From assembly GCA_023150835.1 (NCBI GenBank), contig JAKLKB010000030.1, positions 1 through 55,531 on the forward strand: 55,531 nucleotides of DNA, in the 5' to 3' direction. A program made the position numbers and the translations under genes. The notes under the pieces are model-generated. The model searched no databases. It saw nothing but the letters and a program-made list of their open reading frames with translations, and was not told where the DNA came from. The stretch is from Myxococcota bacterium. Its GTDB lineage: Bacteria; Myxococcota_C; UBA6777. Within the stretch, counting starts at the first letter, position 1, and each line of letters opens with the position of its first letter. Below, piece by piece: positions 27,801 to 47,064 of the stretch.

Positions 27801-27852
27801 CCGTACGCCATCTTGGTATGGCTTGACACCTGCGCCACAAGAAGGCGTACGG
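27801..27852 (+). terminator. Long-range inverted repeat after the TPR gene
   Basis: CCGTACGCC (27801-27809), starting right after the stop codon, pairs with GGCGTACGG (27844-27852), with a small nested stem GCCAT/ATGGC inside the loop. No U-run follows. It could end the transporter transcript or stabilise it; TIR element copy D begins 30 bp later. Confidence 0.4.
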
Positions 27853-27881
27853 GTTCGGCCTTCAACGCCACACAAGAGTCA

Positions 27882-27994: not shown

Positions 27995-28044
27995 TCAGCA
28001 TCGCCTTCGCCCTGTGGGGCTGATCGTGCGAAAAGGAGAGATCG

Positions 28045-29130: not shown

Positions 29131-29176
29131 GCTAGGCGACACCTTGCCCAAGATCGCTCGCCGAAAGGAGCCGAAT

Positions 29177-30133
29177 ATGCGGAAGAAACCCGCCCTGTGG
29201 GGAATCGTCTTGATGACTTGGGTGGCCGTAGGACTCGGCTGCCAAACCGCTTTCGCACAAGACGAAGTGGACTTCGACGAAAACTATCGCTCAGGTCGAG
29301 AGATGGTGAGTCAGAATCTTTACATGGACGCTGTGCGATTGTTGTACCCCGCTGTCTTTAAAACATCTCGTGGAAAAAAACACTTTGGTGCCAACTACTT
29401 CCTTGGGATGGCCTATTATCACGTCGGCAGCGTGACCCAAGCGATGAAGGTACTCACCACAGCGCGAGCGCTTGCCCGAAAACGCAATCAACGCGAACTG
29501 TTGTATCCTTTGCTCAAAAAGATCAGCAAAGACTTTGGTGAGCTTCAGGTGATCTCCGAAGCGGGCGCGGATAGTCCAAAGATCCTCAAGATCGCGCTCA
29601 CGCCGCAAAAAGCCTTCACTGACTCGATCCAACGCCGCGCCTTTTCGATTATCGCCGACCTTTGGAGTAAAAAGGGCATCCAGTTTGAAAACACCAAGAC
29701 GCTTTGGCTACCCAAAGGCGAGTACTTCTTGCAGATACCTCAGCCGATGTGTCTGTCGTATGCCTTTACCATCGGTGGAACCGTCGTGAGCGACTTGAGT
29801 ATCGGCGATAGTGCCGTAAGCATCGGCCTCAAGGACGTGCCAAGCTGCAAATGCCTTGGGGGGCAAGTCTTAAAAATAGAAGCGAAAAAACGCTATTGCA
29901 CTTGTCCAGACGGCAATATCTGGGCGTCCGAGCGCAAACGCTGCATCCTCCAACAATCGACGGACAACCGAAGCTGGCTTGCACGCAATTGGCCTTGGTT
30001 GACGGTCGTTGGGGTGGTCGTCGTCGCTGCTGCGGTCGCCATCCCTGTGGGGTTGGTGGTGGCTCAAAATCAAGATCGTGATATCAGCTTCGGAAAAACC
30101 GACCTGTTTTTGCGCCGCGATCTTCCGCGTTGA
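29177..30133 (+). CDS. Exported TPR protein with Cys motif and C-terminal membrane segment (paralog)
   Basis: A 318 aa protein with the same layout as the one at 26877-27800: signal (VLMTWVAVGLGCQTAFAQ), a TPR pair (SQNLYMDAVRLLYPAVF, NYFLGMAYYHVGSVTQAM), a beta region (LWLPKGEYFLQIPQPMCLSY), Cys cluster CKCLGGQVLKIEAKKRYCTC, NWPW, a membrane segment (LTVVGVVVVAAAVAIPVGLV) and a short tail. The order is the same and several blocks are nearly identical (KKRYCTCP), but much of the helical part has diverged. The ATG at 29177 has AAAGGAG 6 bp upstream. The next gene's ribosome-binding site overlaps its 3' end. Function unknown; it is probably an inner-membrane-anchored periplasmic subunit working with the propeller or the PEGA protein. 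Confidence 0.78.
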   Translation: MRKKPALWGIVLMTWVAVGLGCQTAFAQDEVDFDENYRSGREMVSQNLYMDAVRLLYPAVFKTSRGKKHFGANYFLGMAYYHVGSVTQAMKVLTTARALARKRNQRELLYPLLKKISKDFGELQVISEAGADSPKILKIALTPQKAFTDSIQRRAFSIIADLWSKKGIQFENTKTLWLPKGEYFLQIPQPMCLSYAFTIGGTVVSDLSIGDSAVSIGLKDVPSCKCLGGQVLKIEAKKRYCTCPDGNIWASERKRCILQQSTDNRSWLARNWPWLTVVGVVVVAAAVAIPVGLVVAQNQDRDISFGKTDLFLRRDLPR

Positions 30134-30144
30134 GGAGACAACTT

Positions 30145-31713
30145 ATGCGTCTGTGGCCCTCTCTACACGGCACTTTTCGTCTGTTGATCGTGATCTTGGC
30201 CGTTGCTGCGCCTGTTGTGGCATACGCCAAAGATCGCACCGCGATCTTTGTACAAAGTCTCGAACCCAAAAACCCCAACGCCCAAAAAACCAGCGGCGAG
30301 ATCAACTGGCTCTTGCGTGCGTTGAGCCAAGCCTCTCTTGCGGACAAAGGCGAGGCTTTGTTGGATCGCGGCTTGTTTTTCTCGAACGCAGAAGCCCTTG
30401 CTGCGGGCAATTGGCTTCGTCGAGCGCAGATAGCTCTCAACGAAGGTATGCAAAACTACGCTTCCGATCCTTCCGCTGCTTTGGAACCTTTGCTCAAGGC
30501 CAGTCGCTTTCTCGAATACACCTTCGCTTATTTCCCTGTGATCGAGCCGATGCGCGTCTCTCGCCTTGCTTCGGGGTTGCTTTATTGGCGAAAGGGTGAA
30601 AAAGCCCTCGGGATGAAGATGATGCAAACAGGCATCCTCCTTGATCCCAAATCTGCCGATATGCCCGAAGCGTTCTCCGATGCAGAAAAAGAGATGATCT
30701 CTGCGGTGCGTTGCAAACTCTCGATGCAACGCACTTCTACGCTGACGATCCAAGCCTTTGATCCCCGCACCGAGCTTTATCTCAACGATAAGTTCGTTGG
30801 CTTAGGCAAAGTCGACCTCAAAAACCTTCGCTCGGGCGAGTACATGATCAAGATGATGCTTGACGGATACCGACATTACAAACGCAAGTTCACGCTCGGT
30901 AAAAGTGGACGTGTATTTGCGCGAAATCGTCCCGGGCCACGCATCCATTTTTATGAGGAGCTTTGTAAAAAGTTCCCGAGCATCTCCAACGATGAGCAAC
31001 TCAAAGACGAATTGAAAGCGGCGGCTTCCACGCTGCGTCTCAAAAAAGACCGTGTCACGCGCTTTTTGGTGGGCTGCTTTCAACCTTCGGGCAACGGCAA
31101 CGTCGGAAACCTCAAATGGTTTGCTCTCGAAGGCGACAAGATGCAAAAAGGCAGTTGGAGCGTTCCCCCCTCCACCAAAGCCCGTATACGTGGCCTCAGC
31201 AAGCTGATCTCCGCGCTCGGACTCCAATCCAACAATCAAGAACCCTCGATGTTGCAATACGCTTCGCTCGCCCCACAAAGCGACTGCAAAGAACCCAACA
31301 ACATCGAACTCCCGCCGCTAATGCCCCCCAAAAGCGATCCTCCGATGTGGACCGTCTCTCCCGGGGATGCGATCACGCTCAGCACGCACCACGGTTTCCG
31401 CTTACAGGGCACTGTCCTTGCCATCGACGGCGAAACCCTCACCCTCGAAGTCTCCAAGAACAAAAGCGACCCCACCGCGCTGCGACAAGTCAAGATCCAA
31501 CGCAAAGAAGTCAAATGGACATTTATTCTTGGACCAAAGCAAGAGGGTGGGTTTCGCATCGGAGAACGTCTGATCGTGATCTCCGTCTTTGGTTTAGTTC
31601 TTCATGGGGTTCTTGCCGCGGATGATGGAGAGAAAATGCGCTTACAAACCAAGCATGGCAGCGAAGTGATCCCTTGGTCGATGATCCGACGAGTGATCCG
31701 CCGCGATTCTTGA
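30145..31713 (+). CDS. Exported PEGA-domain protein
   Basis: A 522 aa protein. The signal peptide LLIVILAVAAPVVAYA leads to a helical N-terminal region (about 20-190). A PEGA domain follows (TLTIQAFDPRTELYLNDKFV, then LRSGEYMIKMMLDGYRHYKR). A middle region of unknown fold comes next, then a C-terminal beta module (ITLSTHHGFRLQGTVLAIDG) with a second copy-like stretch near VISVFGLVLHGVLAADDGEK, suggesting two SH3-like or Lsm-like barrels. PEGA domains are usually surface or periplasmic binding modules. The ATG at 30145 has GAGGAG 7 bp upstream. It is the last plus-strand gene before a convergent small gene. Its final 43 bp have been duplicated into the spacer. Confidence 0.75.
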   Translation: MRLWPSLHGTFRLLIVILAVAAPVVAYAKDRTAIFVQSLEPKNPNAQKTSGEINWLLRALSQASLADKGEALLDRGLFFSNAEALAAGNWLRRAQIALNEGMQNYASDPSAALEPLLKASRFLEYTFAYFPVIEPMRVSRLASGLLYWRKGEKALGMKMMQTGILLDPKSADMPEAFSDAEKEMISAVRCKLSMQRTSTLTIQAFDPRTELYLNDKFVGLGKVDLKNLRSGEYMIKMMLDGYRHYKRKFTLGKSGRVFARNRPGPRIHFYEELCKKFPSISNDEQLKDELKAAASTLRLKKDRVTRFLVGCFQPSGNGNVGNLKWFALEGDKMQKGSWSVPPSTKARIRGLSKLISALGLQSNNQEPSMLQYASLAPQSDCKEPNNIELPPLMPPKSDPPMWTVSPGDAITLSTHHGFRLQGTVLAIDGETLTLEVSKNKSDPTALRQVKIQRKEVKWTFILGPKQEGGFRIGERLIVISVFGLVLHGVLAADDGEKMRLQTKHGSEVIPWSMIRRVIRRDS

Positions 31714-31757
31714 GCCTTGGTCGATGATCCGACGTGTGAGCCGCCGCGCTCCTTAGC
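31672..31757. repeat. Tandem duplication of the 3' end of the PEGA gene
   Basis: A 43 bp unit starting CCTTGGTCGATGATCCGACG covers the last codons and stop of the PEGA gene (31672-31714) and is repeated immediately downstream (31715-31757) with several mismatches. The second copy reaches the stop codon of the convergent small secreted-protein gene. Confidence 0.85.
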
Positions 31758-32169
31758 TTCGACAAATCACGTAGATCTGGAGGCGGTAGTTGCGGCGATT
31801 TCGATAAAAGGCAACATTGATCCCGCTCCAGCCGCTCGAAGAATTGAGGCTGCGAAGGTGATAGGCGCTGACGTGGCGCAAGACAAAAAGCTGACGCAGC
31901 TTGTAATTCTTTCCATCACTTCCATAGACCTTGCGATAAAATTTCAAGATCCCATCGATATCTTCGTAGCCACCCGAACTATAACGCCCGCCGCCTAGAT
32001 CTTCGGAGCCTTTGGGGACCATGACTCCGCAGCTTCCGCGTTTGGAGCTTGGGCTGGCTTGTGCGGCGTATGAACCCCCAAGCCACAGCACCAGACACAA
32101 CGCGCCGAAGATTTGAAGAGCAGCGTGAGATCGCCAAGCAGGGATGCCGCGAACCGTCCATGTTTGCAT
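31753..32169 (-). CDS. Small secreted protein of unknown function
   Basis: A 138 aa protein. The N-terminal signal is QIFGALCLVLWLGGSYAAQA. The mature part is a compact beta-rich domain with one Cys near its start (KRGSCGVMVPKGSEDLGGG) and two more near the end, aromatic- and Arg-rich toward the C-terminus (FYRNRRNYRLQIYVICRS). No family is recognised. The ATG has only a weak GGAA upstream. Its 5' leader is made of the 48 bp tandem array derived from the 3' end of the FHA gene, and its 3' end touches the duplicated end of the PEGA gene. It lies on the same strand as the Glt-like cluster and could be read through from it, or be an independent insertion. Confidence 0.6.
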   Translation of the reverse strand: MQTWTVRGIPAWRSHAALQIFGALCLVLWLGGSYAAQASPSSKRGSCGVMVPKGSEDLGGGRYSSGGYEDIDGILKFYRKVYGSDGKNYKLRQLFVLRHVSAYHLRSLNSSSGWSGINVAFYRNRRNYRLQIYVICRS

Positions 32170-32178
32170 GATGTTTCC

Positions 32179-32360
32179 GTAAGCAAGAGAAGAGGGCGAT
32201 CAGTCCGCCACGTTGGAGATTTTTTGGTGAGCAAGAGGGCGATCAATCCGCCACGTTGAAGATATTTTTGTGAGCAAGAGAAGAGGGCGATCCGCCCGTC
32301 GCGTTGAAGAGGCTTTGGTGAGCAAGAGAAGAAGGCGATCAGCCCGCCACTTTGAAGAGG
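32179..32360. repeat. 48 bp tandem array extending from the 3' end of the FHA/TonB-like gene
   Basis: Units begin GTGAGCAAGAGAAG (plus strand) at 32179, 32227, 32270 and 32318, with periods 48, 43 and 48. The last unit runs into the coding sequence and contains the final codons and stop of the FHA gene (32339-32341). The others fill the spacer up to the start of the small secreted-protein gene. The units are diverged by several bases each, so the array is not recent. Confidence 0.85.
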
Positions 32361-34507
32361 AAGGGATAGTTGACGTCGACAACCCCGCCACCTTGGGGGA
32401 CAGGAAACTTCCAGCGGATAATCCGACGAGTGATGCAGTTTTCCACCGCTTCATTGTTCATGGTGGTGGATTTGACGTTGGCCGTATCGACCGCACCTGT
32501 TCCGCCGATACGCCATGCGATCACGACTTTTCCGCCGAGTTTGGGGTTTTTCGTGAGTTCTTTTTCATAGCAGTAACGGATCTGCGCCCAGTGCATCTGG
32601 ATAACGCGAGCGATCTGCTCTTTGGTCAACGCGCCTTTGAGGATCAAGCGGCCCGGCTGGATCTGCGTGATGGTTTTGCCGCGTCCTTGCCCGCGAAGGT
32701 TCATCCCTCCACGACCATACACGCGCTTGCGGCCACCGTATCCCCAGCTACCACCGCCATAACCGCCACCACCGCCGCCGCCGCCCGCGCCAAAGCCACG
32801 ACCTGCGCCGCCCATCCCAAAGGACGCGCCACCCGCCGAACCGAGCAGCTTGCCAAGGAACTGTTGATCTTGGGCTTTTCCAAACAGATCGCCGCCGGGA
32901 CCCATATCGCCCATCCCGCTAGAGAGAAGGCCCAATAGACCCGATTTTTTGACCCGCTGCATGTCTCGTTGTTTTGGATCCGCAGGAGCGTCTTCTTTCG
33001 GAGCTTCTTTGGTCTCGTCCTTCTTGTCTTCTTTGATCTCTTCGTCTTTTTTCTCTTCTTTTTTTAGTTCAAATTTCTTCTCTTGCTTCTTTTTGATCTC
33101 GGGTGGTGGAACCACGATCATCTTGGCAAAGCGGCCTTTGAGGACGGTTTCACCGAGCGCCATCGGTCCAAGCGGAACGAATTGGAACATCAAGATCATC
33201 GCTGCGTGGACGATCGCAGAAAAAGCAATCACGCGCCAAAGCAGATAATCGCGGTCGTGGTAGGCGTCGCTGTTGTAAGCCTTGGTGGGGTAAGTGTAAG
33301 AGAACTCGATGTTCAGGCTTTGGCCTTCGAGAGCGAAGACTTCGCCCGGGGTCACCGCATACACTTGTCCGTCAAGTCCGTGGACACTTTTGCTACTGAA
33401 TTGGCCTTTGAGTGCGTCTGCCGAAACCACCGTCCCATCGGCTTTTGTCAGGACTGGATGGAAGGCATTGGTAAAAAACACCCCAAAGCTCCCTTGGAAG
33501 GGGATCACGAGGGGATAGTTTTGATCGGGGAACTTTTCATCGGCAAACGAAAAGTCGTTCAGGGGGTGCGTTCCAACCGTGACAATGCGGGGGCGATCGA
33601 AGTGACCGACCTCGACGGGGGTTCCGTCCAAGAGAAAGCGCACTTGGAAAAGGCGTTCACCTTTGCTTTTATCTTCTTGAACGAGATTTCGGCGGATACT
33701 CGGGGGAAGTTGATTGTCTGGGATCGGTGTGGTATCGATCACGATCGGCGCTGCGGGTTCTGCGATCAACGGAGCGCCATAATCACTTGCGGGAGGAGCC
33801 GCTGCTGCCGAGGGGATGCGCATCTCGTCTCGGACAAAATTGGCCATGATCACGCTGCTTGGAGCGGGAGGCAGGGGTTCGTCTGTGACGGGAAAATCGG
33901 GCTCTTGGTCGAGTTCGGCTTCGCCACCAAAGTCACCTTCGTTGTCAAAGGGAGAAGGCTTGATTCCTGCGAAGGGATCGGCTTTTTTGTCGAATGCGAA
34001 GTCTTCTTCTTCCATGACGGGTGGAAGCAACAGATCGTCGTCTTCGCGCTTGCTTTTGGCCGAAACAGCTTTGCCAAAGTCAGGCAACGGGCGCTTGACG
34101 GTGGGGCCTTCGGCTTCGCCGGGTGCTCCGAACACATTGAGGATATCATCGTCGGCATCTGCGATGCTTCCGAACATGGGAGCCGCGACTTCGCCAGGGG
34201 GATTCCCAAACACGCGGAGATACGAGCTTCCGATCTGAACGAGATCACCGTCTTCGATCTGGGCCTCGCCATCGATCTTTCGACCGTTATGGAGGGTCCC
34301 TTCGCTGCTCCATCCCAGATCGCTCAGCAGGATCTCGCCGTGCTCGTTGACTTTGAGCATGGCGTGGATGCGAGAAACTTGCGGGTCTTCCATACGCAGA
34401 TGCGCTGCGGGGCCGCTCCCGATGATGATGTTTTCTTGGGAATATTTGTTGGTATCAACCACACTATCCCCATCCAATATCTGGATATAAACCGTTTTCT
34501 TTTCCAT
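32339..34507 (-). CDS. FHA - membrane segment - TonB-like (AgmX/PglI) protein, GltG-like
   Basis: A 722 aa inner-membrane bridging protein. The N-terminal FHA domain (about 10-100) has the phosphothreonine-binding residues in QVSRIHAMLKV and GTLHNGRKI. An acidic/Pro linker follows, then a second beta region (about 310-420) and one membrane segment (about 424-448, VIAFSAIVHAAMILMF). Next come a Lys/Glu-rich stretch, a Gly-rich stretch (AGGGGGGGGYGGG) and a ~100-residue C-terminal AgmX/PglI TonB-like domain (QIRYCYEKELTKNPKLGGKV). The cytoplasmic FHA could bind a phosphorylated partner while the periplasmic end contacts the outer membrane. This order matches Myxococcus GltG. It is the last gene of the Glt-like cluster. 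The Shine-Dalgarno is weak. Confidence 0.85.
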   Translation of the reverse strand: MEKKTVYIQILDGDSVVDTNKYSQENIIIGSGPAAHLRMEDPQVSRIHAMLKVNEHGEILLSDLGWSSEGTLHNGRKIDGEAQIEDGDLVQIGSSYLRVFGNPPGEVAAPMFGSIADADDDILNVFGAPGEAEGPTVKRPLPDFGKAVSAKSKREDDDLLLPPVMEEEDFAFDKKADPFAGIKPSPFDNEGDFGGEAELDQEPDFPVTDEPLPPAPSSVIMANFVRDEMRIPSAAAAPPASDYGAPLIAEPAAPIVIDTTPIPDNQLPPSIRRNLVQEDKSKGERLFQVRFLLDGTPVEVGHFDRPRIVTVGTHPLNDFSFADEKFPDQNYPLVIPFQGSFGVFFTNAFHPVLTKADGTVVSADALKGQFSSKSVHGLDGQVYAVTPGEVFALEGQSLNIEFSYTYPTKAYNSDAYHDRDYLLWRVIAFSAIVHAAMILMFQFVPLGPMALGETVLKGRFAKMIVVPPPEIKKKQEKKFELKKEEKKDEEIKEDKKDETKEAPKEDAPADPKQRDMQRVKKSGLLGLLSSGMGDMGPGGDLFGKAQDQQFLGKLLGSAGGASFGMGGAGRGFGAGGGGGGGGYGGGSWGYGGRKRVYGRGGMNLRGQGRGKTITQIQPGRLILKGALTKEQIARVIQMHWAQIRYCYEKELTKNPKLGGKVVIAWRIGGTGAVDTANVKSTTMNNEAVENCITRRIIRWKFPVPQGGGVVDVNYPFLFKVAG

Positions 34508-34635
34508 GTTTGTTCGTCAGCCTCGCGGGGGTCAATAAAGAGACAAAGAAGGTGTCGCGCTCTGGATAGACGCGGAGTGTTCGAGTCGATTCGAGAAGAG
34601 AGGAGAAGTGCAGAGTGGGTCAAGAGGAGCGATGA

Positions 34636-34920
34636 TTAGAGTTTGAGGGCGTTTCGCATCAGCTCGGGATTGAAGTTTTTGCGCGGCTGGATCAAACTGT
34701 CAAACTTCACGCGGCTGCGTTGAACCATGTAGCTTCCTTCGGGCTTGATCAATTCACCTTCCACGGCGCTGCCATCGAAGTCGATCTTCGTGTTCTTCTT
34801 GAACATCACGCGATCTTCGCCTTTGATGATCTTGATTCGGGTTTGGGCCATCGCTGAACCCGTTGCCATCGCGGACATCGCGAAAAACACAGCCATCGCG
34901 GTCAACATGCTTTTTTTCAT
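34636..34920 (-). CDS. Small periplasmic protein of the Glt-like cluster
   Basis: A 94 aa protein: signal peptide MLTAMAVFFAMSAMATGSAM ending AQ, then a short domain (IDFDGSAVEGELIKPEGSYM, with RVKFDSLIQPRKNFNPELM). I recall similar small proteins next to FHA/AgmX genes in other Myxococcota, but cannot verify this here. The ATG at 34920 has AAGGAG 6 bp upstream; the longer frame start lacks a ribosome-binding site. A good sigma70-type promoter lies 73 bp upstream, so this gene and the FHA gene can be transcribed separately from the TPR genes. Confidence 0.78.
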   Translation of the reverse strand: MKKSMLTAMAVFFAMSAMATGSAMAQTRIKIIKGEDRVMFKKNTKIDFDGSAVEGELIKPEGSYMVQRSRVKFDSLIQPRKNFNPELMRNALKL

Positions 34921-34992
34921 CGGTCGCTCCTTTTTCTCGTTGTATCCGAGTGAATCAACGATTCCCCGAATCCTCTGTGCATAATCCGGCAG

Positions 34993-35022
34993 AGTGTAAT
35001 TCGGTTCTGCCGCCCTTGTCAA
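34993..35022 (-). promoter_or_regulatory. Sigma70-type promoter before the small periplasmic gene
   Basis: On the minus strand, TTGACA (35022-35017), an 18 bp spacer, and TACACT (34998-34993). The -35 is a perfect match, and the start codon of the 94 aa protein lies about 70 bp downstream. It would drive the small protein and FHA genes independently of the cluster's first promoter. Confidence 0.55.
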
Positions 35023-35087
35023 GTCCTGATCGGCTCTTCTCTTCTCTGGCGCTTGGACAACCGCTTTCTTGTTGGGTTCCGATCTTT

Positions 35088-36392
35088 TTAAGAACGAGGG
35101 GCAGGAGCAGGCGTGGTAGGAGCAGGCGTGGTAGGAGCGGGCGTGGTAGGAGCGGGCGTGGTAGGAGCGGGCGTGGTGGGAGCGGGCGTGGTGGGTGCGG
35201 GCGTGGTGGGTGCGGGCGTGGTGGGTGCAGGTTTGGGGGTAGCTTTTTTGGGTTCTTTTGTGGGTTCGGTGCCGATCTTGGAGAGTCGGTCTTTGGCTTG
35301 TACGATGAACTTGCGTGCATCTTCGAAGCTTTGGAGTTTTTTGGCGTCAGGGTGTGCAAGGAACTTGTCGAACAATTTTTCTGAGCTTTTTTGAGTGTCC
35401 GTGTTCTTGCTATTGAAGAGGATGACGCCGTGTTGAAAGACGGCTTCGGGATCGTCGGGGCGAAGGGTGAGGATGCGGTCATACACTTCTTTGGCTTCGT
35501 TCATGCGTTCCATGCCCATCAAAGCGACGCCGTAGTTGCGGTTGGCGTAGAGATTGTTGGGCTGTTGTTTCAGAACTTTTCCGAAGTGATCGATCGCCGT
35601 TTTCCAAGCGCCATTTTGGATGGCGATGGTTCCAAGGTTCATGTGCGCTTGGGTGTTCATGGGATCGTGTTTGAGGGCTTCGTGGAACTGCGCTGCTGCT
35701 CGGGTAAGGTCTTGTTTCTTCATGTAGACCATCCCGAGGTTGTTGTAAAAACCGGGGTCTTTTTTGTCGACTTGTTGAAGGGCGATGGTGGCGACAAGCT
35801 CGGCTTGGTTGTAGCGTTCCCAATCGTAGTAGAGCAGGATCAAGTTGCGGTAGGCTTGAACATTTTTGTCATCGCGAGAGAGAACAAGTTGGGCGAGTTT
35901 TTCGGCCTGATCGTATTTCTTGGCTTTCCGATACAGCATCGCGAGGTTGTTTTTGAGTTCAAGATTGTCAGGATTATTCTTGTTGAAATCTTCAAAGATG
36001 GTGAGTGCTTTGTCGATCTTGTTTGCGCGGATGTAGGCTTGTGCGAGTTCACCGCGAACTTCTTGGTTGCCGGGGTTTGCGGTTGCGTATTTCTCGTAGT
36101 GACCGAGGGCTTCGTCATGACGTTCTTGTTTTTCGTAGAGCTTTCCGAGAAAAAGAGAGGCTTTGGTTAGATTGGGGTCTTTGTCGAGAGCTTTTTTGCA
36201 AAGTTCCGTTGCCGCAGTGACGGAAGCAGCGGAATCATCGCCCATCTTGGTTTTGCACTCGATCAGATATTCTTGTGCGCTTTTTTCTTGGACGACCGTC
36301 TTGATCGGGTCTTTTTTGACCTGTGTGCCCGTACAAGCGGGTCCGACGGCAAGGGCGGCAGCGCATCCGAGGAAAAGAACAAAGCGTTGCAT
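35088..36392 (-). CDS. TPR lipoprotein of the Glt-like cluster (GltE-like position)
   Basis: A 434 aa protein. The signal VLFLGCAAALAVGPAC ends at a lipobox Cys, predicting an outer-membrane lipoprotein. About eight canonical TPRs follow (LTKASLFLGKLYEKQERHDE, IDKALTIFEDFNKNNPDNLE, LTRAAAQFHEALKHDP, MNTQAHMNLGTIAIQNGAWK). The C-terminus is a (TTPAP)8 linker on a 15 bp DNA repeat, ending APAPRS. TPR lipoproteins are components of the Glt apparatus in Myxococcus, where they help assemble the periplasmic and outer-membrane part. The start has AAGGA 9 bp upstream. It lies 62 bp after the 1304 aa TPR gene and is probably co-transcribed with it. Confidence 0.85.
   Translation of the reverse strand: MQRFVLFLGCAAALAVGPACTGTQVKKDPIKTVVQEKSAQEYLIECKTKMGDDSAASVTAATELCKKALDKDPNLTKASLFLGKLYEKQERHDEALGHYEKYATANPGNQEVRGELAQAYIRANKIDKALTIFEDFNKNNPDNLELKNNLAMLYRKAKKYDQAEKLAQLVLSRDDKNVQAYRNLILLYYDWERYNQAELVATIALQQVDKKDPGFYNNLGMVYMKKQDLTRAAAQFHEALKHDPMNTQAHMNLGTIAIQNGAWKTAIDHFGKVLKQQPNNLYANRNYGVALMGMERMNEAKEVYDRILTLRPDDPEAVFQHGVILFNSKNTDTQKSSEKLFDKFLAHPDAKKLQSFEDARKFIVQAKDRLSKIGTEPTKEPKKATPKPAPTTPAPTTPAPTTPAPTTPAPTTPAPTTPAPTTPAPTTPAPAPRS
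35110..35229. repeat. 15 bp tandem repeat (8 units) encoding TTPAP
   Basis: GGCGTGGTRGGWGCR (plus strand) recurs with exact 15 bp spacing from 35110 to 35229, encoding the Thr/Pro-rich tail of the TPR lipoprotein. Being in frame, slippage alters tail length only. Confidence 0.9.
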
Positions 36393-36454
36393 ACAAATCG
36401 ATCCTTCTTTTTACAGTTTAGCCCGCAGGCTCCAAGTCTTTCGGCTTGGTGGGT

Positions 36455-39400
36455 TCACATCCCCAACACAGCGTCGCCGTCTTTTTTGGACTGCTTGGAT
36501 TCAGCGGCTTTATCGGCTTGGGGGGAAGCGTCCTTGGCATCCTTGGCGTCTTTTCCGTCGTTGGCCGGTGCTGCGGGCTTTTTGAGCATATCTGGTGTGG
36601 CTTTCTTCGAAAGATCGAGCTTGGAGAGGGTGGGTTCGATCAACCAGAAACGGGTTTTGCGTTTGCTGAGGACGGTATAAGGGTTCACTTGGTTGAGTTT
36701 GCGTGTGATCTGGTTGCGGCGCAGCTCGACTTGGCGGGTCCATTCGTTGTAAAGGCCGAGTTCTGCGGCTCTCTTCAACACAGCGGAGTATCCTTCGATG
36801 GCGGCGTCTTCGTAGCGCAGCGCGATGTTTTCGAGTTCGCTTTTGTACATCTGTTGGAGGTCGGGTGACAGGTCTTTGGGGATGGGGGCGGCAAAGATCT
36901 TTTCCACGAAGATATGGGTGATCTCGTTCATCCGAAACACCGCAGCAAGCGTCCATTTGGCGACGCCGTAACCTGCAACGGCGGAATAGTCGCCTCGCAG
37001 AGCCGTTCCTGTTTTGATGATGTTTTTGAGAACACCTTTGTCTTTGCGGCTGTTTCCCGTGAATTGGATGGAGATATAAGAGCGTCGTCGCCGCTCTGCC
37101 AAGAAGAATCGGGCTTGAGCGAGCGATTCGAGAGCGGGGCCTTGGCCCATAATGCCCTTGATCTTGTGGCGAACCATCTGATCTCCGAGTGCAACGACCA
37201 TCATATAGCGTTTTTCGGTTTCGGCGTTGTTTCCGAGTTTTTCGTTGGCAGCGGCGATGTGCGCGTGGGCGTACAACAACAGATCGTTTTCCACCAAGTC
37301 CTTCTTCAACGTGCTCAGGGTTTTCAAGACGGCGGGGGCCCCCTTGGCGTCGAGGTCTCGTTCAAATCGCCGAACTGCGGTCGTTAAGAACGTGGAGACT
37401 TTGGCATCTTGATACTTGGCGAGGTACACCTCAAAGGCTTCGATGGCGGCTTTCCATGCTTTGTTGTCTTCGTGGACGGTAGCGATGGCAAGGTAAAGTT
37501 TGGAGGCTTCCTTGTCCTCGGGGAAACGGCGGATGAAGTCCCTGTACAGGATGATGGCGCGTTCGCTTTGTTGAAGGCCACGACGATAGAGGGCTGCGCT
37601 GTAGATGGCGCGGTTTTGTTGGGCGAGCTTTTTCTTTTCGGTGTCTTCAGAGGATTCTTTTGCAACAGCTTTGCCCTTTTTTCCACGCTTTTTTGCGACT
37701 TTCTTTTTGACGATCTTTTTCTTGCCTTTTTTCGGCTTGGCTCCGTCTTCTTCGGCACTTTCAAGGATCTTCATCACGTCTTTTTCGCCATACACGTATT
37801 TTTCATACCAAGACGCGGATTTGTCGTAGTTGGCGATCTGCTCGTAGTGGCCGCCAAGTTCAAACTTGATCTGATCCACAAAACTGGTTTCGGGATAGCG
37901 GCTCACCATCAGCTCGCGATACTTGATGGCATCAAGGATGCGCTTGGAGTTGTTGAAGTTGTTTCCTGCGATGGCAAGGGCGTTTGGAGCACGAGGACTC
38001 ATGACAAAGCTTTTCTTGGTGACCCAAGGGCCTGTTTTTCCGAATTCTTCCTCGTATTTCACGAGTTGTTCTGCGGTTTTGAGTGCGCCAAGTGTTTTTT
38101 GCTCGATGAAGATACGCTGCCATGCGGAGCGGATCACCATCTGGTACATCTCTTCTTTGAACTTGGCGTTTTTGGTGAGTTGCGGATCTTCGATGAAGAT
38201 GCGTGCGTTTTGCTCCAACTGAGGCCAGTCTTGGAGGTCTTCGTAAGAATAGAGGATCATAAATGCCGCACGACGGCTGAGTTCGTGGGTCGGAAACTCT
38301 TTTGCCATCATCGAAAAGATGTTCATCGATTTGCGGTAATGCTTGTAAGAATAGTAGATCGCACCTGTCTTAAAGAAACTTTGTAGGCGTTCTTCTTTGT
38401 CCGACTCTTTTTTGGGATCGAGGATGGTCAGATAACGCTCGTAGGCTTTCATTAAGCGTTGATCCCATTCTTTGATCGTGAGGCGAGTCCATGTGATCTT
38501 GCCGTCTTTGTCTTTGGTCAGACCTTGAAGTTTTTTGCCGGCCCCTTTTAACTCGACGCTGCCGGTGCGTCCGGCGAGTGCTTCATAGCAGAGGATCTCG
38601 GAGAAGGCGGCTTGTTTTTTGAACTGCCCTTGGATCTGGGTGCTGCGTTGGACGGTTTGGTCGTACTGGTAAGCAGCGCGGGCGTAGACCTTGCGAGCGT
38701 CTTCGGGAGGATTGTTTTTGCGGGTTTTGGGGGTGAGTTTTTGGGCTTTGCGATAAAGCAGTTCGGCAAGGTAAAAGCGCAGTTCGTAAGCACTTTCTGA
38801 ACTGGGATAATACTCCAGATATTTTCCGTACAGTTGGATCGCAAAGTCGTAATAAAGCTCTTGGCGCTTGAGATTTTCTTTTTCTTTTTGGGCGTCTTGG
38901 TGGTAACGTGTCGAGTATTCGAGCAACGTTTGTTCTGCGGACTCGTTGGCTTCTTGCCAAACTTTCTTATCGCCGTTCCATCGTTTGTGCCAAGGATTTT
39001 TATCATCAAAGTAAGCCATGAGGTTTTCGACTTCTTTGAAGATCTCTTGGGGCTTGGCGATCTTGGCGATGGATCGGAGGACTTCGTTTTGGAACAGCGG
39101 AGCGTCGGGGCCAAAGTTGTCGGGTTCGCCTTGGGGATTTAGGGTCATCAAGAGCTTGTAGGTCTTGATGGAGAGGGGATAGTTGCCTTGGTTGTAGTAG
39201 CGGCCTGCGAGACGGCGGGTGGCTTTGTAGGCGTACACAGGCCCCATGATGGATTTGAAGTAATTGTAGGCATCATCCGAAACGTCCAAACGTGCGAACA
39301 CAAGGACCAGATCGCGCAAGGCTTCGTCACGCAGGATCACTTTGCTTTCTTTGGTTTTGGCGTAGCGGATGGAGAGTTTGATCACGTGTTTGAATTGTTG

Positions 39401-40369
39401 GAGGGCTTTTTCGTACTCGCCGACGTTGAATTGACACCAGCCGATCATGTACATCGAACGAAGGTTGATGCCGCGCAAGTTGGCCTTGTCATCGAGAGAA
39501 AGATTGGGATCTTTGGTGCGTTCTGCGGTGATGCGAAGGGCGGATTGGTAATTTTCGAGAGCGAGTTGGACTTTGTTTTTGGTGTTGTTGAAGTAGTAGT
39601 CGGCAAGAGCAGTATAAGCATCTGGAACATAACGGCTATTTGGATAATCTTTCAACAATCGGGTGAACATGGTGAGGGCTTCTTGCTTTTTGTCCATGTC
39701 CATGAAGTTGAAGCCGAGGTTGTAGACGACTTCGTCGGCGCGTTCGTACTTGGGGTAAAGTTGGAGCAGTTTTTTGTAGACGTTAACGGCGTTGGTGCGG
39801 TACACGTCGGCTTTGGAGAGTTCGGCTTTGGGAGCGGGGGGGCAGTTTTGGTTGTTGCGTTTGCGGCAATCTTGGTCCCACTCTTCCATTTTTTTGTTGT
39901 GTTCTTCCATCGACAAGAAGCGGAGATATTTGGATTCTTCCCAATATTCTTCGGCCAATTGATAACGCAACTGTGCGTTACGGGCGGGATCTTCTTCATT
40001 GGGGATGAGTGTCTTGTAGGTGTTAATCTTTTGTTGACGGATCTCGGCTTTGGCTTTGTCTGCGAAGACGCCTGCGGTGAGTCCTTGGACCTTTGCGGGG
40101 CGTTGGACTTGCTTTTTGGCTTCTTCGGCACGACGGCGTTCTTCTTCGAGTTCGCGTTGGGTTTTTTTGCGTTTGAGGTTGATCAGCAGCTTATCTTTTT
40201 GCTTACGTTGAAGCTTGAGTTTTTGAAACGAGCCTTCGCGTTTGCCTTTTCGCTCAAAGTCTTTTTGGTCGTAGTTTTGGGCAGAAGCAAGGCCCAAAGA
40301 GAGCGCCCAGAGGGCGGCACATCCGAGGCCAAGCAGCCAAGCATACAACGCGTTGTTTTGGCGGATCAT
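36455..40369 (-). CDS. Giant periplasmic TPR protein (AgmU/GltD-like size)
   Basis: A 1304 aa protein. The signal peptide WALSLGLASAQ is followed by a long charged stretch (RKQKDKLLINLKRKKTQREL), then many TPR or TPR-like helical pairs, for example KKLLQLYPKYERADEVVYNL, TRLLKDYPNSRYVPDAYTAL and LQQFKHVIKLSIRYAKTKES. Near residue 890 is a Lys/Ala-rich insert (KKKIVKKKVAKKRGKKGKAV), unusual in an otherwise TPR protein. The C-terminal tail is Asp/Lys/Ala-rich (DGKDAKDAKDAS). Its length and all-TPR nature recall AgmU/GltD of Myxococcus, a ~1200 aa periplasmic Glt component; that assignment rests on context and size. The start overlaps the upstream gene's stop by 4 bp (ATGA), so translation is coupled. 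Followed 62 bp later by the TPR lipoprotein. Confidence 0.82.
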   Translation of the reverse strand: MIRQNNALYAWLLGLGCAALWALSLGLASAQNYDQKDFERKGKREGSFQKLKLQRKQKDKLLINLKRKKTQRELEEERRRAEEAKKQVQRPAKVQGLTAGVFADKAKAEIRQQKINTYKTLIPNEEDPARNAQLRYQLAEEYWEESKYLRFLSMEEHNKKMEEWDQDCRKRNNQNCPPAPKAELSKADVYRTNAVNVYKKLLQLYPKYERADEVVYNLGFNFMDMDKKQEALTMFTRLLKDYPNSRYVPDAYTALADYYFNNTKNKVQLALENYQSALRITAERTKDPNLSLDDKANLRGINLRSMYMIGWCQFNVGEYEKALQQFKHVIKLSIRYAKTKESKVILRDEALRDLVLVFARLDVSDDAYNYFKSIMGPVYAYKATRRLAGRYYNQGNYPLSIKTYKLLMTLNPQGEPDNFGPDAPLFQNEVLRSIAKIAKPQEIFKEVENLMAYFDDKNPWHKRWNGDKKVWQEANESAEQTLLEYSTRYHQDAQKEKENLKRQELYYDFAIQLYGKYLEYYPSSESAYELRFYLAELLYRKAQKLTPKTRKNNPPEDARKVYARAAYQYDQTVQRSTQIQGQFKKQAAFSEILCYEALAGRTGSVELKGAGKKLQGLTKDKDGKITWTRLTIKEWDQRLMKAYERYLTILDPKKESDKEERLQSFFKTGAIYYSYKHYRKSMNIFSMMAKEFPTHELSRRAAFMILYSYEDLQDWPQLEQNARIFIEDPQLTKNAKFKEEMYQMVIRSAWQRIFIEQKTLGALKTAEQLVKYEEEFGKTGPWVTKKSFVMSPRAPNALAIAGNNFNNSKRILDAIKYRELMVSRYPETSFVDQIKFELGGHYEQIANYDKSASWYEKYVYGEKDVMKILESAEEDGAKPKKGKKKIVKKKVAKKRGKKGKAVAKESSEDTEKKKLAQQNRAIYSAALYRRGLQQSERAIILYRDFIRRFPEDKEASKLYLAIATVHEDNKAWKAAIEAFEVYLAKYQDAKVSTFLTTAVRRFERDLDAKGAPAVLKTLSTLKKDLVENDLLLYAHAHIAAANEKLGNNAETEKRYMMVVALGDQMVRHKIKGIMGQGPALESLAQARFFLAERRRRSYISIQFTGNSRKDKGVLKNIIKTGTALRGDYSAVAGYGVAKWTLAAVFRMNEITHIFVEKIFAAPIPKDLSPDLQQMYKSELENIALRYEDAAIEGYSAVLKRAAELGLYNEWTRQVELRRNQITRKLNQVNPYTVLSKRKTRFWLIEPTLSKLDLSKKATPDMLKKPAAPANDGKDAKDAKDASPQADKAAESKQSKKDGDAVLGM

Positions 40370-42195
40370 CGCTTACATTCTCCCTGAATAAATTGACGGT
40401 AGTGGGCCACTTCATCGAGCCAGAACTCGCCTTGGTAGGGCCAAAAGATATGGCTTTGTTCTGTGATCAAGGTGTAGCGGTATTCGTCTTGTTCGATACC
40501 GCCGCCTTGTGCGTAGCGATCGAGCTCTTGCTTTTGTTTTTGCAAGGTTTCGAGCTTGATGACTTGGGCCTGATTGACTTGTTTGGTGACATCCTTGCGG
40601 ATGGACTCGAGGGCTGCGTGGATGCTGAGGCCCGCTCGGCGTTTGAGGGCTTCACGGGTTTTGAGGGCCGTTTCAAGCAAGGCACGCCCGAGGTTTGAGG
40701 TCTTCCATGCGGAGCCGCGAGTGCGGATGATCTCGATCTCGGCGTCGGTTTTGTCCATGAGGCTTTGGTAGTTGCGCAGCGATTTGTCTTGTTCAACAAG
40801 TGCAATGAGAGAGGGGAGAAGATCCGTAGTTTTGCCTTCTTTAAGCAGCGTTTGTTGGCTTCGGAAGTACTCGTAGTATTGGGCGATCCAGTTCTCCTTG
40901 GTGCGTCGGGCAACCAATATTTTGAGTTTATCTTGGAGCGGTTTAAAGAACGCTTCAAAGCGTGCGATCGATTGTTTGGTTTCTTCGTATTTGCAGTTTT
41001 GGAAGTAGATCAGAGACTGGAGGATCTGGAGTTCGGGGAAGAAGCTGATCTGATAAAAGGCCGACTGGAGGCCCAAGATGCGCCCAAGGGAGAAGTGATA
41101 GTACTTGAGCATATAAAAGACCCAAGAGGTTTCAAAGAGGACTTCTCCTTTGGTCAGGCCGCGCTGTTTGGGGACTTTGCGGTATTCCCGAAGGGAGGCG
41201 ACAAGGTGTTCTGGGCCTTTGGGGTTGTCGAGGTTAAAAACACCGAGAGCGTAATAAGAGCGGGCGATACCGAGTTGTGCGAATTCTTTGATTTGGAGGA
41301 GTTCTTGGCGTAGTGCTTTTTCTTCGGGCTTATCGCCGGTGGGTAGGGGGAGATCGATGATGCGTTGGAAGTATTCGATGGCTCCCTCGTTGTAGCCGAC
41401 TTGGGCGTTGCGTGTGCCCATGAGATAGAGGGCTTTGGCGAAGTAGTTGTAGGGGGCGCGCTTGCGGACTTGGCTGAGGAGAACGATGGGCATATAGATG
41501 TATTCGGTATTGGTGCGGCCAAAGACGAAGTAGTAGCGGCCCATGAGGTAGGAGAAGGCGTCCTTAAAATCGTCGATACGTTTGTGCCAGCGTTGGGTGA
41601 GGTCGGGGTTGCGTTTGACGTTGGGGGGGACAGGGAACAGATAGGGGATGGGGTCGGTTAATGCGGGGATTTCGATTTTTTTGCTTGTGCGTGTCAGTCG
41701 AAGAGCACGGATATTTGTGGGGATACGTCGAAGGATCTGGATCCGTCCAAGGCGTTCGAGGGTTAAGGTTTCATCGCCTGTTGCGGAGGCTGTTTGGATC
41801 ATGCGATCGAGCGCAAGCAGGAAGTTGCCGTCGGGGCGTCGTTTTTTGGGGTCGGCGATATCGAGGGATTGGGTCTCGCGCAAGACTTCGTTAAAGTATC
41901 CAGAGGAGACGATACCGAGTTGCATCCGAAAGAGGGCGCGTGCGAGCAAGAGGCGGGCAGCGCGTTGAAATTTAGGGAGGGCGGTACCGTTTTCGATGAT
42001 ATCGAAGAAGTCGACGGACGCGCCTTCAAAGTCGTTGCTTTTGTACTTGACACGGGCGCGGCTAAAGAGGCTTCGGATCTCGCGTTCGGTCATCATGGCT
42101 TGTGCAGCCACAGGTTCAACATACAAACAAGAGGTAAGAAGGGCGGCAGCAAGCGCCAGCATCCACCTCGACATACGTCCGGTTTTTTGCAACAT
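40366..42195 (-). CDS. Periplasmic TPR-like protein of the Glt-like cluster
   Basis: A 609 aa protein. The signal is LALAAALLTSCLYVEPVAAQ; a Cys inside a possible lipobox (LTSC) makes a lipoprotein alternative possible. The mature protein is helical with TPR-like units (ARVKYKSNDFEGASVDFFDI, YNEGAIEYFQRIIDL) and a long coiled-coil stretch toward the end (KLETLQKQKQELDRYAQGG). The C-terminal motif FWPYQGEFWLDEVAHYRQ looks characteristic; I recall similar W/F-P-F-x-G-E-Y-W endings in myxobacterial TPR proteins but cannot check this. The ATG has GGCAGGAG 6 bp upstream. It lies 19 bp after the beta-barrel gene and overlaps the giant TPR gene by 4 bp. Confidence 0.8.
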   Translation of the reverse strand: MLQKTGRMSRWMLALAAALLTSCLYVEPVAAQAMMTEREIRSLFSRARVKYKSNDFEGASVDFFDIIENGTALPKFQRAARLLLARALFRMQLGIVSSGYFNEVLRETQSLDIADPKKRRPDGNFLLALDRMIQTASATGDETLTLERLGRIQILRRIPTNIRALRLTRTSKKIEIPALTDPIPYLFPVPPNVKRNPDLTQRWHKRIDDFKDAFSYLMGRYYFVFGRTNTEYIYMPIVLLSQVRKRAPYNYFAKALYLMGTRNAQVGYNEGAIEYFQRIIDLPLPTGDKPEEKALRQELLQIKEFAQLGIARSYYALGVFNLDNPKGPEHLVASLREYRKVPKQRGLTKGEVLFETSWVFYMLKYYHFSLGRILGLQSAFYQISFFPELQILQSLIYFQNCKYEETKQSIARFEAFFKPLQDKLKILVARRTKENWIAQYYEYFRSQQTLLKEGKTTDLLPSLIALVEQDKSLRNYQSLMDKTDAEIEIIRTRGSAWKTSNLGRALLETALKTREALKRRAGLSIHAALESIRKDVTKQVNQAQVIKLETLQKQKQELDRYAQGGGIEQDEYRYTLITEQSHIFWPYQGEFWLDEVAHYRQFIQGECKR

Positions 42196-42214
42196 GCGTC
42201 ACTCCTGCCAAGGT

Positions 42215-42928
42215 TTAAAAGAAGAAGCTAAAGCCAAGATTGAGTGCCATATCGACACGGAACAAGTCTTGTTTTCGGCTTTCAAAGTGATCGGGCATAA
42301 ACAGCACACGAAACTCCCATCGGAAGGCGAGAAAGCGCAGCAAGAAGTAGCGTTGTCCGAGGCCGACGCCGCCAAAGGGGGCAAAGCCGGGGCTGCCTTT
42401 GGCACCTTTTTCGGTCAACACGTTTTCGGCTGCGGGTAGATCGCTGGGTGGGGGGAAGGTCAAAAAGACGCCACCAAGGACGGTAAAGAAGACATCGTAA
42501 TGGATGATCGCTTGGCTGAAGAGGTTAAATTTTCCGTAGAATGGGGCGAATCGAAACTCTGCACCAACGGTTGACAAGAAGAAGGGACGGCGAACGTCGG
42601 GTTTGACGCGGAAGGTGCCTTGTTCGTTTTGGAGTTGGTTGGTGAGTCCGGTGGGGACGTCAAAGCTGCCTGTGGCGAGGAGTCCGAGCGCAAACCATTC
42701 GTTGAGATGGTACATATAGCCGAGGCTGACGTTATAGACCTGATAGAAAGGATCGTTGGTGACGAGACCAAGACTGAGGTTGAGTTCTTGTTTTTGGGTT
42801 TTGGTGTAGAGGCGCTTTTTGAGGGCGTCGTCACCGGGGCGAAAGCGATCGGATGGACTGTCTGCGTGAGATGTGCGGGGGAGGCAGAGGAAGCCGAGAA
42901 CAACAAGCACAAGCGTGAACTTTTTCAT
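42215..42928 (-). CDS. Outer-membrane beta-barrel protein (OMP_myx_plus type)
   Basis: A 237 aa protein. The signal peptide LVLVVLGFLCLPRTSHA is followed by alternating-residue beta-strands with aromatic girdles: LNLSLGLVTNDPFYQVYNVS, LGYMYHLNEWFALGLLATGS, LLRFLAFRWEFRVLF and a terminal strand MALNLGFSFFF ending in Phe, the usual outer-membrane barrel signature. The pattern of a short N-terminal region, DPFYQVYNVSLGYMYHLNEW and a C-terminal FFF fits the myxobacterial outer-membrane beta-barrel family that occurs in Glt gene clusters. It is the first gene of the cluster; its promoter must lie in the 302 bp upstream. It would be the outer-membrane partner of the TPR and FHA/TonB-like proteins. 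Confidence 0.83.
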   Translation of the reverse strand: MKKFTLVLVVLGFLCLPRTSHADSPSDRFRPGDDALKKRLYTKTQKQELNLSLGLVTNDPFYQVYNVSLGYMYHLNEWFALGLLATGSFDVPTGLTNQLQNEQGTFRVKPDVRRPFFLSTVGAEFRFAPFYGKFNLFSQAIIHYDVFFTVLGGVFLTFPPPSDLPAAENVLTEKGAKGSPGFAPFGGVGLGQRYFLLRFLAFRWEFRVLFMPDHFESRKQDLFRVDMALNLGFSFFF

Positions 42929-43230: not shown

Positions 43231-43989
43231 TCATGGGGTGTTTGGGTTAAAGGTGAGGGCCAAGCGTGCGGCTATCTTGTCGGCGGAGCCTTGTTCGATG
43301 GTATAGCTGAGTTCTTCGGAAGAAGCGATCTGGTTTTGTCCTGCGTCAAGGGCGCGGGCGAAGACGTTGCGGTTGTTTGCGAAAGGGACGTTGGTTAAGA
43401 TCGCGAACTTGGGTTTGGGCTGTCCATCGATCAGACGAACGAAGAGGTTTTCTTCTTTGACGTCGTTGAAGGCTTTGAGTACAAATTGCAAGCGTTTGGC
43501 GGCTTCAGGGATATCGTTTGTGAAGCGGATGATCAGGGTTCCGGTGGTTACGCCTTGTCGGCGACCGAGAGAGAGCGTGACTGCGCTTTGGATGTTGTCG
43601 CCCGATTTCTCGACTTGAAAGGCTGGGGTGCTGCCGTTGGACACGGAGCGACCGGTCGAGTCGTAGGTGACGATCGTGAGTTTGCGTTCGCCGCCGTAGG
43701 GGATCTGTTTGAGGGGGATGGGTGGGATCTGGCATTTGCCTGTTTGGGAGTTCCAAAAAAGGTCGGTGGGTTGAAAGCCTTCGGTGAACTTGGCGTTGAC
43801 GATCTCTTCTTGTTGTTCGGTGAGTTTTTCGACGGTGAATTCCATCTGATAGACGCCGACGCATGGGAGGTCGGTCTTTTCTTCGACGCGGATCACGAAG
43901 CGTTCGATATAAGAGCAACTGCCGAGTTGCGTAAGGGTCAAGACAAACAACAACGCAGAAGGCCAAGAGGGACAAGCGAAACGTTTCAT
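43231..43989 (-). CDS. Lipoprotein of unknown function
   Basis: A 252 aa predicted lipoprotein. The signal LLFVLTLTQLGSC ends in lipobox LGSC. The mature part is beta-rich, with two Cys (DLPCVGVYQMEF, GKCQIPPIPLKQIPYGGERK). It may hold one or two Ig-like or related beta domains (TLIIRFTNDIPEAAKRLQFV). No known family is recognised. The ATG at 43989 begins the signal peptide; the longer frame adds 23 charged residues with no ribosome-binding site. It lies downstream of the two PEGA paralogs on the same strand, 118 bp after the nearer one, and may belong to the same transcript. Confidence 0.68.
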   Translation of the reverse strand: MKRFACPSWPSALLFVLTLTQLGSCSYIERFVIRVEEKTDLPCVGVYQMEFTVEKLTEQQEEIVNAKFTEGFQPTDLFWNSQTGKCQIPPIPLKQIPYGGERKLTIVTYDSTGRSVSNGSTPAFQVEKSGDNIQSAVTLSLGRRQGVTTGTLIIRFTNDIPEAAKRLQFVLKAFNDVKEENLFVRLIDGQPKPKFAILTNVPFANNRNVFARALDAGQNQIASSEELSYTIEQGSADKIAARLALTFNPNTP

Positions 43990-44107
43990 TCTTTTTCCAT
44001 ATACTTTATCGGTACATACGAGACGTTTTGGGGGGGCCTTTCTTTGTGAACCACCCAATGCGGAGGCTTTAGGGCTTGATGGGTGAACCGATCAAGCGCC
44101 GATGGGT

Positions 44108-45652
44108 TTATTGAGTGCCAGAAGCGGTGGTGGTGGTTACAATAAAAGTGGCGCTAGGTGGTGCGCTATTTTGTGCGATCAGGACGCCAGCGGTGACGGC
44201 ACCAGCGCCGACGACGGCGACAACGATAATGGTCCAAAACCACCATTTTTGTGCGATGGATTCGCCCTTGGGTTCAGGCTTTTGGGGTTTTTCTGTGATG
44301 CGTTTTTCGGGTTCGCGGCGTGGTTCGATGGCGGCGACGCGGCGTTCGGGTTCGGGGTCGGGTTCGGAGCGGCGTTCGGGTTCGGAGCGGCGTTCGGGTT
44401 CACTGCGGGCGATGGGTTCGGCGCGTCGTTCGGGTTCGGGTTCGCGTCGGATGACAGGGGGTGGGTCAGGGCGGCGGACGGGTTCTGCGAGGGGAGAGAG
44501 TCGTTGTTCGAGTTGTTGGGCGTAGGCGACGATGGCGCTGCGATGTTCATCCCGAGACAGGCCGATGGGGAGTTTGTGGTAGGTGATATTTTTGGCGTCT
44601 TTTTGGTATTTGGCGATGTAGAGCAAGATGACGCTTCCGCCATCTTTTTTGGAAAAGCGTCTGGGTTCGAGCATATAGAGGTGATCGACGCTGAGTTTGT
44701 CGCGGATCGACTCAAGGCGATCGAGGACGAGGGGATCGACGGCGGCGGCTTTGTCGAAGATGGGGATGCCGTCGAGGGAGAGAGCTTTGGGATCACGTTC
44801 GAGGGAGACGTTGTTTTTGAGGCTGGTGCGGCTGCCGAGCTTTTTTTTATCAAAGTTGGCGATACTTTTCCACATCTTGTAGCCGTTGTGTTCGACGCGA
44901 AACAGGTGACGGCCAAGAGGGATCTCGCGGATGGTGACGGGGGTTTTTCCGACAAGGCGTTGATTGTAGTAGACTTTTGCGTTGTTGGGGGTGGAGTCGA
45001 GAGACAGCGAGTAGTTGGCGCTGCGTTTGACCCAGTCGCGTATCGTATTGAAATATTTGACGAATTGCTCGGGATATTTGCCTTCATCGGGTTGGTATTC
45101 GGGGTTGAATTGAGCTGCGCGGATGACGTATTCCCGTGTTTTGGGGCCATTGCGCATCTGGAGGTAGGCAAGGCCGTGGAGCAAGTAAAGCTCGGTGAAG
45201 AGGTTGGGATCCGTCACCCAATCTTCGATGTGTGGGGCAAGTTTGTTGGCTTTTTCGAGGGCTTTGAGGGCAAAGCCGGCATAGCGGGGTTGATTAAAGG
45301 AGCAAAGTTTTTGGCCTTTTTCGAGGTAACGGCGGAAGTATGTAATGCGGATCTCAGTTTTTCGGTCGATGGTTTGGACATTATTGAGGCGGTTGGTGAG
45401 ATCCGCTTCTTCCATGACGTCGAGGCGGGGGCGTTGTCGAAGTGCCCAGCGGTAGAGGCGTTGGATCCATTCGGCCTCGGTGCTGTCGAGGTTTGTGTTG
45501 GATTTGTAGGGGATGAGAGCGATCTTGGGCTTGGTGTTTGCGTGGGAGTTGGAGAACCAAGTCAAGGGGAGAAAAAACAGCAGGGGCAAGACTATGCAGC
45601 GAAAGAAGGTGCGTTGCTGTGGGGGGAGGGTGGGGGTGAACTGTGGGGCCAT
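44108..45652 (-). CDS. PEGA-domain protein with Arg/Glu/Pro linker and C-terminal membrane segment
   Basis: A 514 aa exported protein. The signal region LPLLFFLPLTWFSNSHA is followed by a TolB/CsgG-like N-terminal domain (PKIALIPYKSNTNLDSTEAE), a helical region, and a PEGA domain (YSLSLDSTPNNAKVYYNQRL, then PLGRHLFRVEHNGYKMWKS). After a conserved second alpha/beta region comes an Arg/Glu/Pro linker (EPERRSEPERRSEPDPEPER), one membrane segment (WWFWTIIVVAVVGAGAVTAG) and a short tail. Most of it aligns with the next gene's product, which lacks the linker and membrane segment. It has the same N-signal/C-anchor plan as the proteins at 26877 and 29177. The ATG at 45652 has AGGAG 8 bp upstream; it lies 46 bp after the paralog. 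Confidence 0.78.
   Translation of the reverse strand: MAPQFTPTLPPQQRTFFRCIVLPLLFFLPLTWFSNSHANTKPKIALIPYKSNTNLDSTEAEWIQRLYRWALRQRPRLDVMEEADLTNRLNNVQTIDRKTEIRITYFRRYLEKGQKLCSFNQPRYAGFALKALEKANKLAPHIEDWVTDPNLFTELYLLHGLAYLQMRNGPKTREYVIRAAQFNPEYQPDEGKYPEQFVKYFNTIRDWVKRSANYSLSLDSTPNNAKVYYNQRLVGKTPVTIREIPLGRHLFRVEHNGYKMWKSIANFDKKKLGSRTSLKNNVSLERDPKALSLDGIPIFDKAAAVDPLVLDRLESIRDKLSVDHLYMLEPRRFSKKDGGSVILLYIAKYQKDAKNITYHKLPIGLSRDEHRSAIVAYAQQLEQRLSPLAEPVRRPDPPPVIRREPEPERRAEPIARSEPERRSEPERRSEPDPEPERRVAAIEPRREPEKRITEKPQKPEPKGESIAQKWWFWTIIVVAVVGAGAVTAGVLIAQNSAPPSATFIVTTTTASGTQ
44338..44450. repeat. Low-complexity repeat encoding the Arg/Glu/Pro linker
   Basis: Imperfect 18 bp units (GGCGTTCGGGTTCGGAGC and variants) encode RSEPER-type repeats near the C-terminus of the PEGA protein at 44108-45652. 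Confidence 0.7.
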
Positions 45653-45698
45653 GCTTTTTTCTCCTGCCGCAAACGAGAGTGTGTACTCAAGAGGCGGA

Positions 45699-46841: not shown

Positions 46842-47064
46842 GCTTGTTCTCCTCGTGGTTGCCTTGGTCTTGTGGTCGGATCCGCAGGGTTTTGTGTGTT
46901 GATCGGTGCTGTGTTCGGCAGCTTTTGCGCTGGTTTTCGAGTACACGATCATTTGCGCTGGTCTGTTGTATCGAAATCACCTGCGAAGATCAAGCGGATG
47001 GTGATCCCAAACGAAGAGAAGGGGAGCGAGACAGAGAGGGGAAGAGTGGCGCGGATAGAGGGTT

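Follow-up and report, generated by a model that had tools for sequence, protein, structure and literature searches.

In Myxococcus xanthus, the Glt proteins (GltA-K) function in gliding and the Nfs proteins (NfsA-H) in assembly of the spore coat, and a single unlinked AglRQS motor is known to serve both (PMC3858216). The Glt/Nfs duplication has been placed in a terminal branch of the deltaproteobacteria (PMC3858216). A GltC-D-E-G core accompanied by AglRQS is found in other bacteria, Gammaproteobacteria among them (Luciano et al., 2011; PMC3169522). Here we analysed a DNA stretch of 55,531 nucleotides (hereafter the window) with a gene cluster, termed W, that has the C, D, E and G proteins in common with this core, but differs from it in having its motor genes outside the cluster and in including the group A parts F and barrel, which the core lacks.

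Cluster W consists of six open reading frames on the minus strand (42928-32339), located where the initial annotation had placed them, and the family matches agree with the order that it had read from the DNA, namely barrel, TPR protein, giant TPR protein, TPR lipoprotein, small protein and FHA-TM-TonB-like protein. The first gene (42215-42928) encodes an outer-membrane beta-barrel of 237 aa from the TIGR04565 family (GltA/B/H, NfsA/B-like; 77 bits against a cut-off of 60), which is kept in the related genomes G001, G002 and G004. It is followed by genes for a GltC/NfsC-like protein of 609 aa (40366-42195; NF033756, 199 bits, equivalog cut-off 450) and a GltD/NfsD-like giant periplasmic TPR protein of 1304 aa (36455-40369), which gave TPR matches and aligns with NfsD at 25% across ~1190 aa. 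Next come a GltE/NfsE-like TPR protein of 434 aa with a Pro/Thr-rich tail (35088-36392; NF033758, 127 bits, cut-off 225), a small secreted GltF/CglF/NfsF-like protein of 94 aa (34636-34920; NF033764, 56 bits, cut-off 90; 45% to NfsF) and a GltG/NfsG-like protein of 722 aa (32339-34507; NF033760, 282 bits, cut-off 650). The latter combines an FHA domain (PF00498, E=2e-12) with a TM segment and a TonB-like AgmX/PglI tail (NF033768, 114 bits, cut-off 40). The N-terminus of the GltE-like protein resembles a signal sequence with a lipobox, the GC of which is evident in the orthologues from G002 and G004 and weaker in the window, so that this protein is likely, as proposed before, a lipoprotein. A single ATGA overlap was found, at the GltC/GltD junction, with the remaining intergenic gaps measuring ~20 to 170 bp; the plural in the earlier description of coupled overlaps and ATGA junctions was thus an overstatement. 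A scan for promoters and terminators gave no signal clearly above shuffles. The stretch between the GltG-like gene and the gene for the 138-aa protein described below (32170-32338) holds about four imperfect copies of a ~45-base repeat.

The interval 32339-42928 covers these six genes, but it is too short for the conserved unit, which extends from 31753 to ~48864. The same-strand block runs from a kinase with a TM segment through a PEGA protein, a lipoprotein-like protein, the barrel, C, D, E, F and G to a protein of 138 aa in G001, G002 and G004, and a divergent sigma factor gene lies on the far side of the kinase gene in all three. Together with the window genome these relatives represent three genera, and an order shared among three genera is not due to chance. 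The GTDB phylum of the window genome is sampled here by five genomes, which are drafts, and cluster W is present in four of them, the one without it (G003) being very fragmented. The relatives are public MAGs (KLAP109, M3003, S139 and NP119) labelled Myxococcota, Myxococcales or Deltaproteobacteria.

The additional genes of the block are likewise on the minus strand. The first gene of the run (47065-48864) encodes a Hanks-type Ser/Thr kinase with a C-terminal TM segment (PF00069, E=6e-34) and HRD and DFG motifs, and occupies the same place in the three relatives. It is followed by a PEGA-domain protein of 417 aa (45699-46952; PF08308), a tandem duplicate with 43% to the next one and seen only in the genus of the window (g1), where G001 has it as well. 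The second PEGA protein (44108-45709; PF08308), 533 aa long with a C-terminal TM segment, shows 34-36% to the genes at the same place in G002 and G004; an open reading frame on the plus strand (44102-45712) was dropped, because the minus-strand PEGA gene is the conserved one there. Directly upstream of the barrel lies a lipoprotein-like beta-sandwich protein (43231-43989), the lipobox Cys of which is invariant among the orthologues in the three relatives; its structural model (pLDDT 66) gave weak Ig/pilin-like matches, indicating a generic beta-sandwich only. At the other end of the block, downstream of the GltG-like gene in the window and in the three relatives, is the gene for a secreted 138-aa protein with two invariant Cys (31753-32169), for which we found no known family and no confident fold match. 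We considered this protein as a counterpart of NfsH and rejected the idea, as there was no similarity and its model was not barrel-like, although the NfsH frame used was probably wrong and the sequence comparison on its own is weak.

Linked C, D, E and G homologues, full-length and hence alike beyond fold class, with a GltG type that carries FHA, TM and AgmX/PglI tail, place W firmly in the broad Glt/Nfs trans-envelope family. The name Glt-like given at first holds in this broad sense, but W is not Glt proper. Matches to the Glt models cover much of the length of these models, but GltC, GltE, GltG and CglF all stay below their cut-offs. We compared W with the genuine Nfs proteins of G145, a genome that is, judged by its genes, M. 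xanthus or very near to it, since its nfs reading frames of 294, 442, 512, 499 and 682 aa match those of Mueller et al. (2010; Table 3, PMC2875238). With the same NCBIfam models, W and Nfs scored 199 and 214 bits for C, 127 and 124 for E, 56 and 68 for F, and 282 and 337 for G, i.e. W is close to genuine NfsC, NfsE and NfsF and somewhat below NfsG. Scores that miss the Glt cut-offs and resemble those of genuine Nfs argue that W is not the gliding copy.

W further resembles Nfs in the order barrel-C-D-E-F-G, in the sizes of D and G, in having its nearest relatives of F and D there, and in an unlinked motor. The order is also that of the contiguous glt loci of some Myxococcota-type genomes, where C, D, E, F, G and barrel are likewise found; W differs from Glt in that no GltI, GltJ, GltK or adhesin gene is present at its locus. 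The differences from Nfs are a single upstream barrel instead of NfsA and NfsB, no barrel after G and no NfsH, the addition of the kinase, the PEGA protein, the lipoprotein and the 138-aa protein, and the fact that no AglRQS-type motor was found in the W genome. Kinase genes upstream of the Nfs loci of two Myxococcota-type genomes (L146 and L199) were weighed as a parallel and set aside as weak, because kinase genes abound in such genomes and these ones are separated from the Nfs loci by others. In several Myxococcota-type genomes a ribosomal protein L3-like gene lies directly upstream of nfsA (L146:6904-7611, L201:13080-13769, L151:12933-13697).

The FHA domain offers one more character. The Arg of the FHA GR motif is normally the main phosphate contact. 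At this position, IGSG is found in all four W proteins and in all six Nfs proteins, whereas Glt has IGR (8/8) and the second cluster of the window genome described below has IGK (3/3). The later motifs of the W domain keep their S, H and N. Since the GR Arg is missing, a standard phospho-threonine switch is doubtful, and the W domain is unlikely to recognise phospho-threonine as FHA domains usually do. The cytoplasmic phospho-signal proposed in the initial annotation is weakened accordingly on the FHA side, although directly upstream a Hanks-type kinase gene is conserved. As a derived trait, IGSG favours the Nfs side for W, and it points to a phosphate-binding Arg lost throughout the Nfs side.

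The genome of the window contains three Glt-family clusters, namely W, B and M, and all three types recur in its relatives. Cluster B (contig C115, 20-31 kb; 20000-36500 with GltJ; loci L030 and L031) encodes a MIDAS-like protein, barrel, C, D, E, F and G, and beside it lies a gene for a GltJ homologue with zinc ribbon, GYF domain and tail (C115, 34-36.5 kb). Cluster M (contig C134, 20-33 kb; 20000-33500; loci L032 and L137) has a 264-aa protein in the place of the barrel, then C, D, E, TolQ, two TolRs and G. Neither a GltJ nor a surface adhesin gene is linked to W; the GltJ homologue and the adhesin-like MIDAS protein are with cluster B, which also scores higher than W with the GltC, GltF and GltG models.

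To place the three clusters, we built quick trees with SH-aLRT support from concatenated C, D, E and G proteins of W, B and M and of the Glt and Nfs loci of Myxococcota-type genomes, and applied AU tests. B grouped with Glt (99). The partner of M was a third Myxococcus cluster (100), which we take to be G4 or G5 in the naming of Luciano et al. W grouped with Nfs at 84 when one long row was included, at 93 without it, and at 81 in a reduced set. The single-gene trees conflict, with D and G joining W to Nfs (84 and 91), C joining it to Glt/B (84) and E leaving it outside (55). The most likely position of W, as far as these alignments tell, is on the Nfs side of the family. Because B and M pair with different Myxococcus clusters, either the Glt, Nfs and G4-like types predate the split of this phylum from Myxococcota, or clusters moved between phyla; the three clusters suggest a Glt/Nfs duplication older than the published one.

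We thus favour, with a probability of roughly 0.6, the reading that W is a Glt/Nfs-type trans-envelope transducer, an old paralogue most likely from the Nfs side, which was kept by a small candidate phylum and would work with an unlinked TolQR-type motor in surface transport. Nfs is likely the nearest described system, yet we do not class W as a member of Nfs, since the number of barrels and NfsH do not fit, the motor seems to be of another type and the tree does not settle the matter. A further, tentative extension, to which we give distinctly less credence, is that three Glt-family machines in a phylum outside Myxococcota share one motor family, W being a kinase-linked, undescribed branch whose motor genes are scattered across the genome and whose TolR pair has Asn instead of the proton-carrying Asp in one partner; in that case the two phyla would have separated only after the Glt/Nfs duplication, contrary to the recent duplication that has been published.

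The strongest competitor holds that W is a third deep Glt/Nfs lineage, orthologous to neither, with the ancestral order barrel-C-D-E-F-G and phylum-specific partners, i.e. kinase, PEGA protein, lipoprotein and 138-aa protein. It would account for the long stem of W (~1.0 change per column), the outside position in the E tree, the conflict of the C tree with D and G, the single barrel and the lack of NfsH. In addition, when 195 genomes of the other phylum were searched with a profile built on the GltC of W, no protein of this type turned up; no match exceeded 173 bits, and the best places were also claimed by the GltC model. A position of W outside Nfs, Glt and B was, however, rejected by the AU test (p=0.026), and the IGSG motif is common to W and Nfs, so that we consider a third lineage unlikely, if still the most serious of the alternatives.

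Considerably less credible is that W is the gliding machine itself. The GltC gene is slightly closer to Glt than to Nfs, and the AU test left a Glt-side position of W standing (p=0.25), but grouping W with B was rejected (p=0.0005), and it is B, in the same genome, that is the sister of Glt and carries the GltJ homologue and the MIDAS-adhesin-like protein, which make it the candidate gliding machine of the phylum. W also misses every Glt equivalog cut-off, and its FHA motif differs from that of Glt.

No MotA/ExbB or ExbD match was found in the window, in line with the earlier claim that the cluster lacks motor genes. The genome as a whole has 11 MotA/ExbB and 11 ExbD matches, and each of the five genomes of the phylum has motor-family genes. 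Besides the TolQ and two TolRs inside cluster M on C134, there is an orphan TolQ on C21 and an orphan TolR on C137, and both kinds of orphan occur in four genomes of the phylum. The TolQs of C134 and C21 are 68% identical, and in the motor comparison they fall, like the TolRs that go with them, beside the second Myxococcus motor (contig C11), which we take as the M2 type, and not beside AglRQS. The latter was assigned to contig C1 of G145, because the Asp at position 28 of its first TolR fits the published aglQ D28N mutant (PMC3858216). A TolQR-family motor is therefore encoded elsewhere in the window genome, but it is of the M2 type, and no AglRQS (M1) type was found in this draft. The M. xanthus AglR homologue of M2 type, MXAN_3003, bound neither NfsG nor GltG in a two-hybrid assay (PMC3858216), so the motor pairing here may differ from that in M. 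xanthus. That W has lost its motor and is now a static scaffold, or a device for signalling under the control of the linked Ser/Thr kinase, would agree with the absence of motor genes at the locus in four genomes, the kinase directly upstream and a motor partner that is a candidate only, but we consider it very improbable, since Glt and Nfs of M. xanthus both rely on an unlinked motor, all five genomes have motor-family genes and the NF033768 tail domain is fully conserved.

Among the TolRs, the first one of the M-type motor and the orphans have Asn in place of the proton-carrying Asp (INIMPLMN or close) in all copies seen (C134:22655-23098, L217; C137:2589-3041, L221; also L291, L294, L297, L298 and L300), while the second TolR of the M-type motor retains it (SLMD). 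A TolR pair with a single Asp would be unusual.

For W as an Nfs-side transducer, a plausible mechanism, drawn by analogy with Agl-Glt and Agl-Nfs, would be that the GltG-like protein is located in the inner membrane, where a proton-driven TolQR-type motor encoded elsewhere, either that of cluster M or the unlinked TolQ and TolR, pulls or carries its periplasmic linker and TonB-like tail. The GltD, GltE, GltC and GltF-like proteins might relay the movement across the periplasm to the barrel, which together with the upstream lipoprotein may engage a surface polymer or surface protein. The job of W would then be moving or organising surface material, with gliding left to cluster B, and regulation probably comes from the kinase conserved upstream, tying one branch of the family to a specific kinase gene. 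Three paralogous machines outside Myxococcota make it possible to ask which parts make for gliding and which for surface transport.

Lastly, two other regions of the window drew our attention. Two large open reading frames (909 and 606 aa) with no Pfam match lie at 14684-19372, upstream of an oligopeptide ABC transporter set, and a protein of 517 aa encoded at 51241-52794 contains a domain of the Stig1 family, which is known chiefly from plants.
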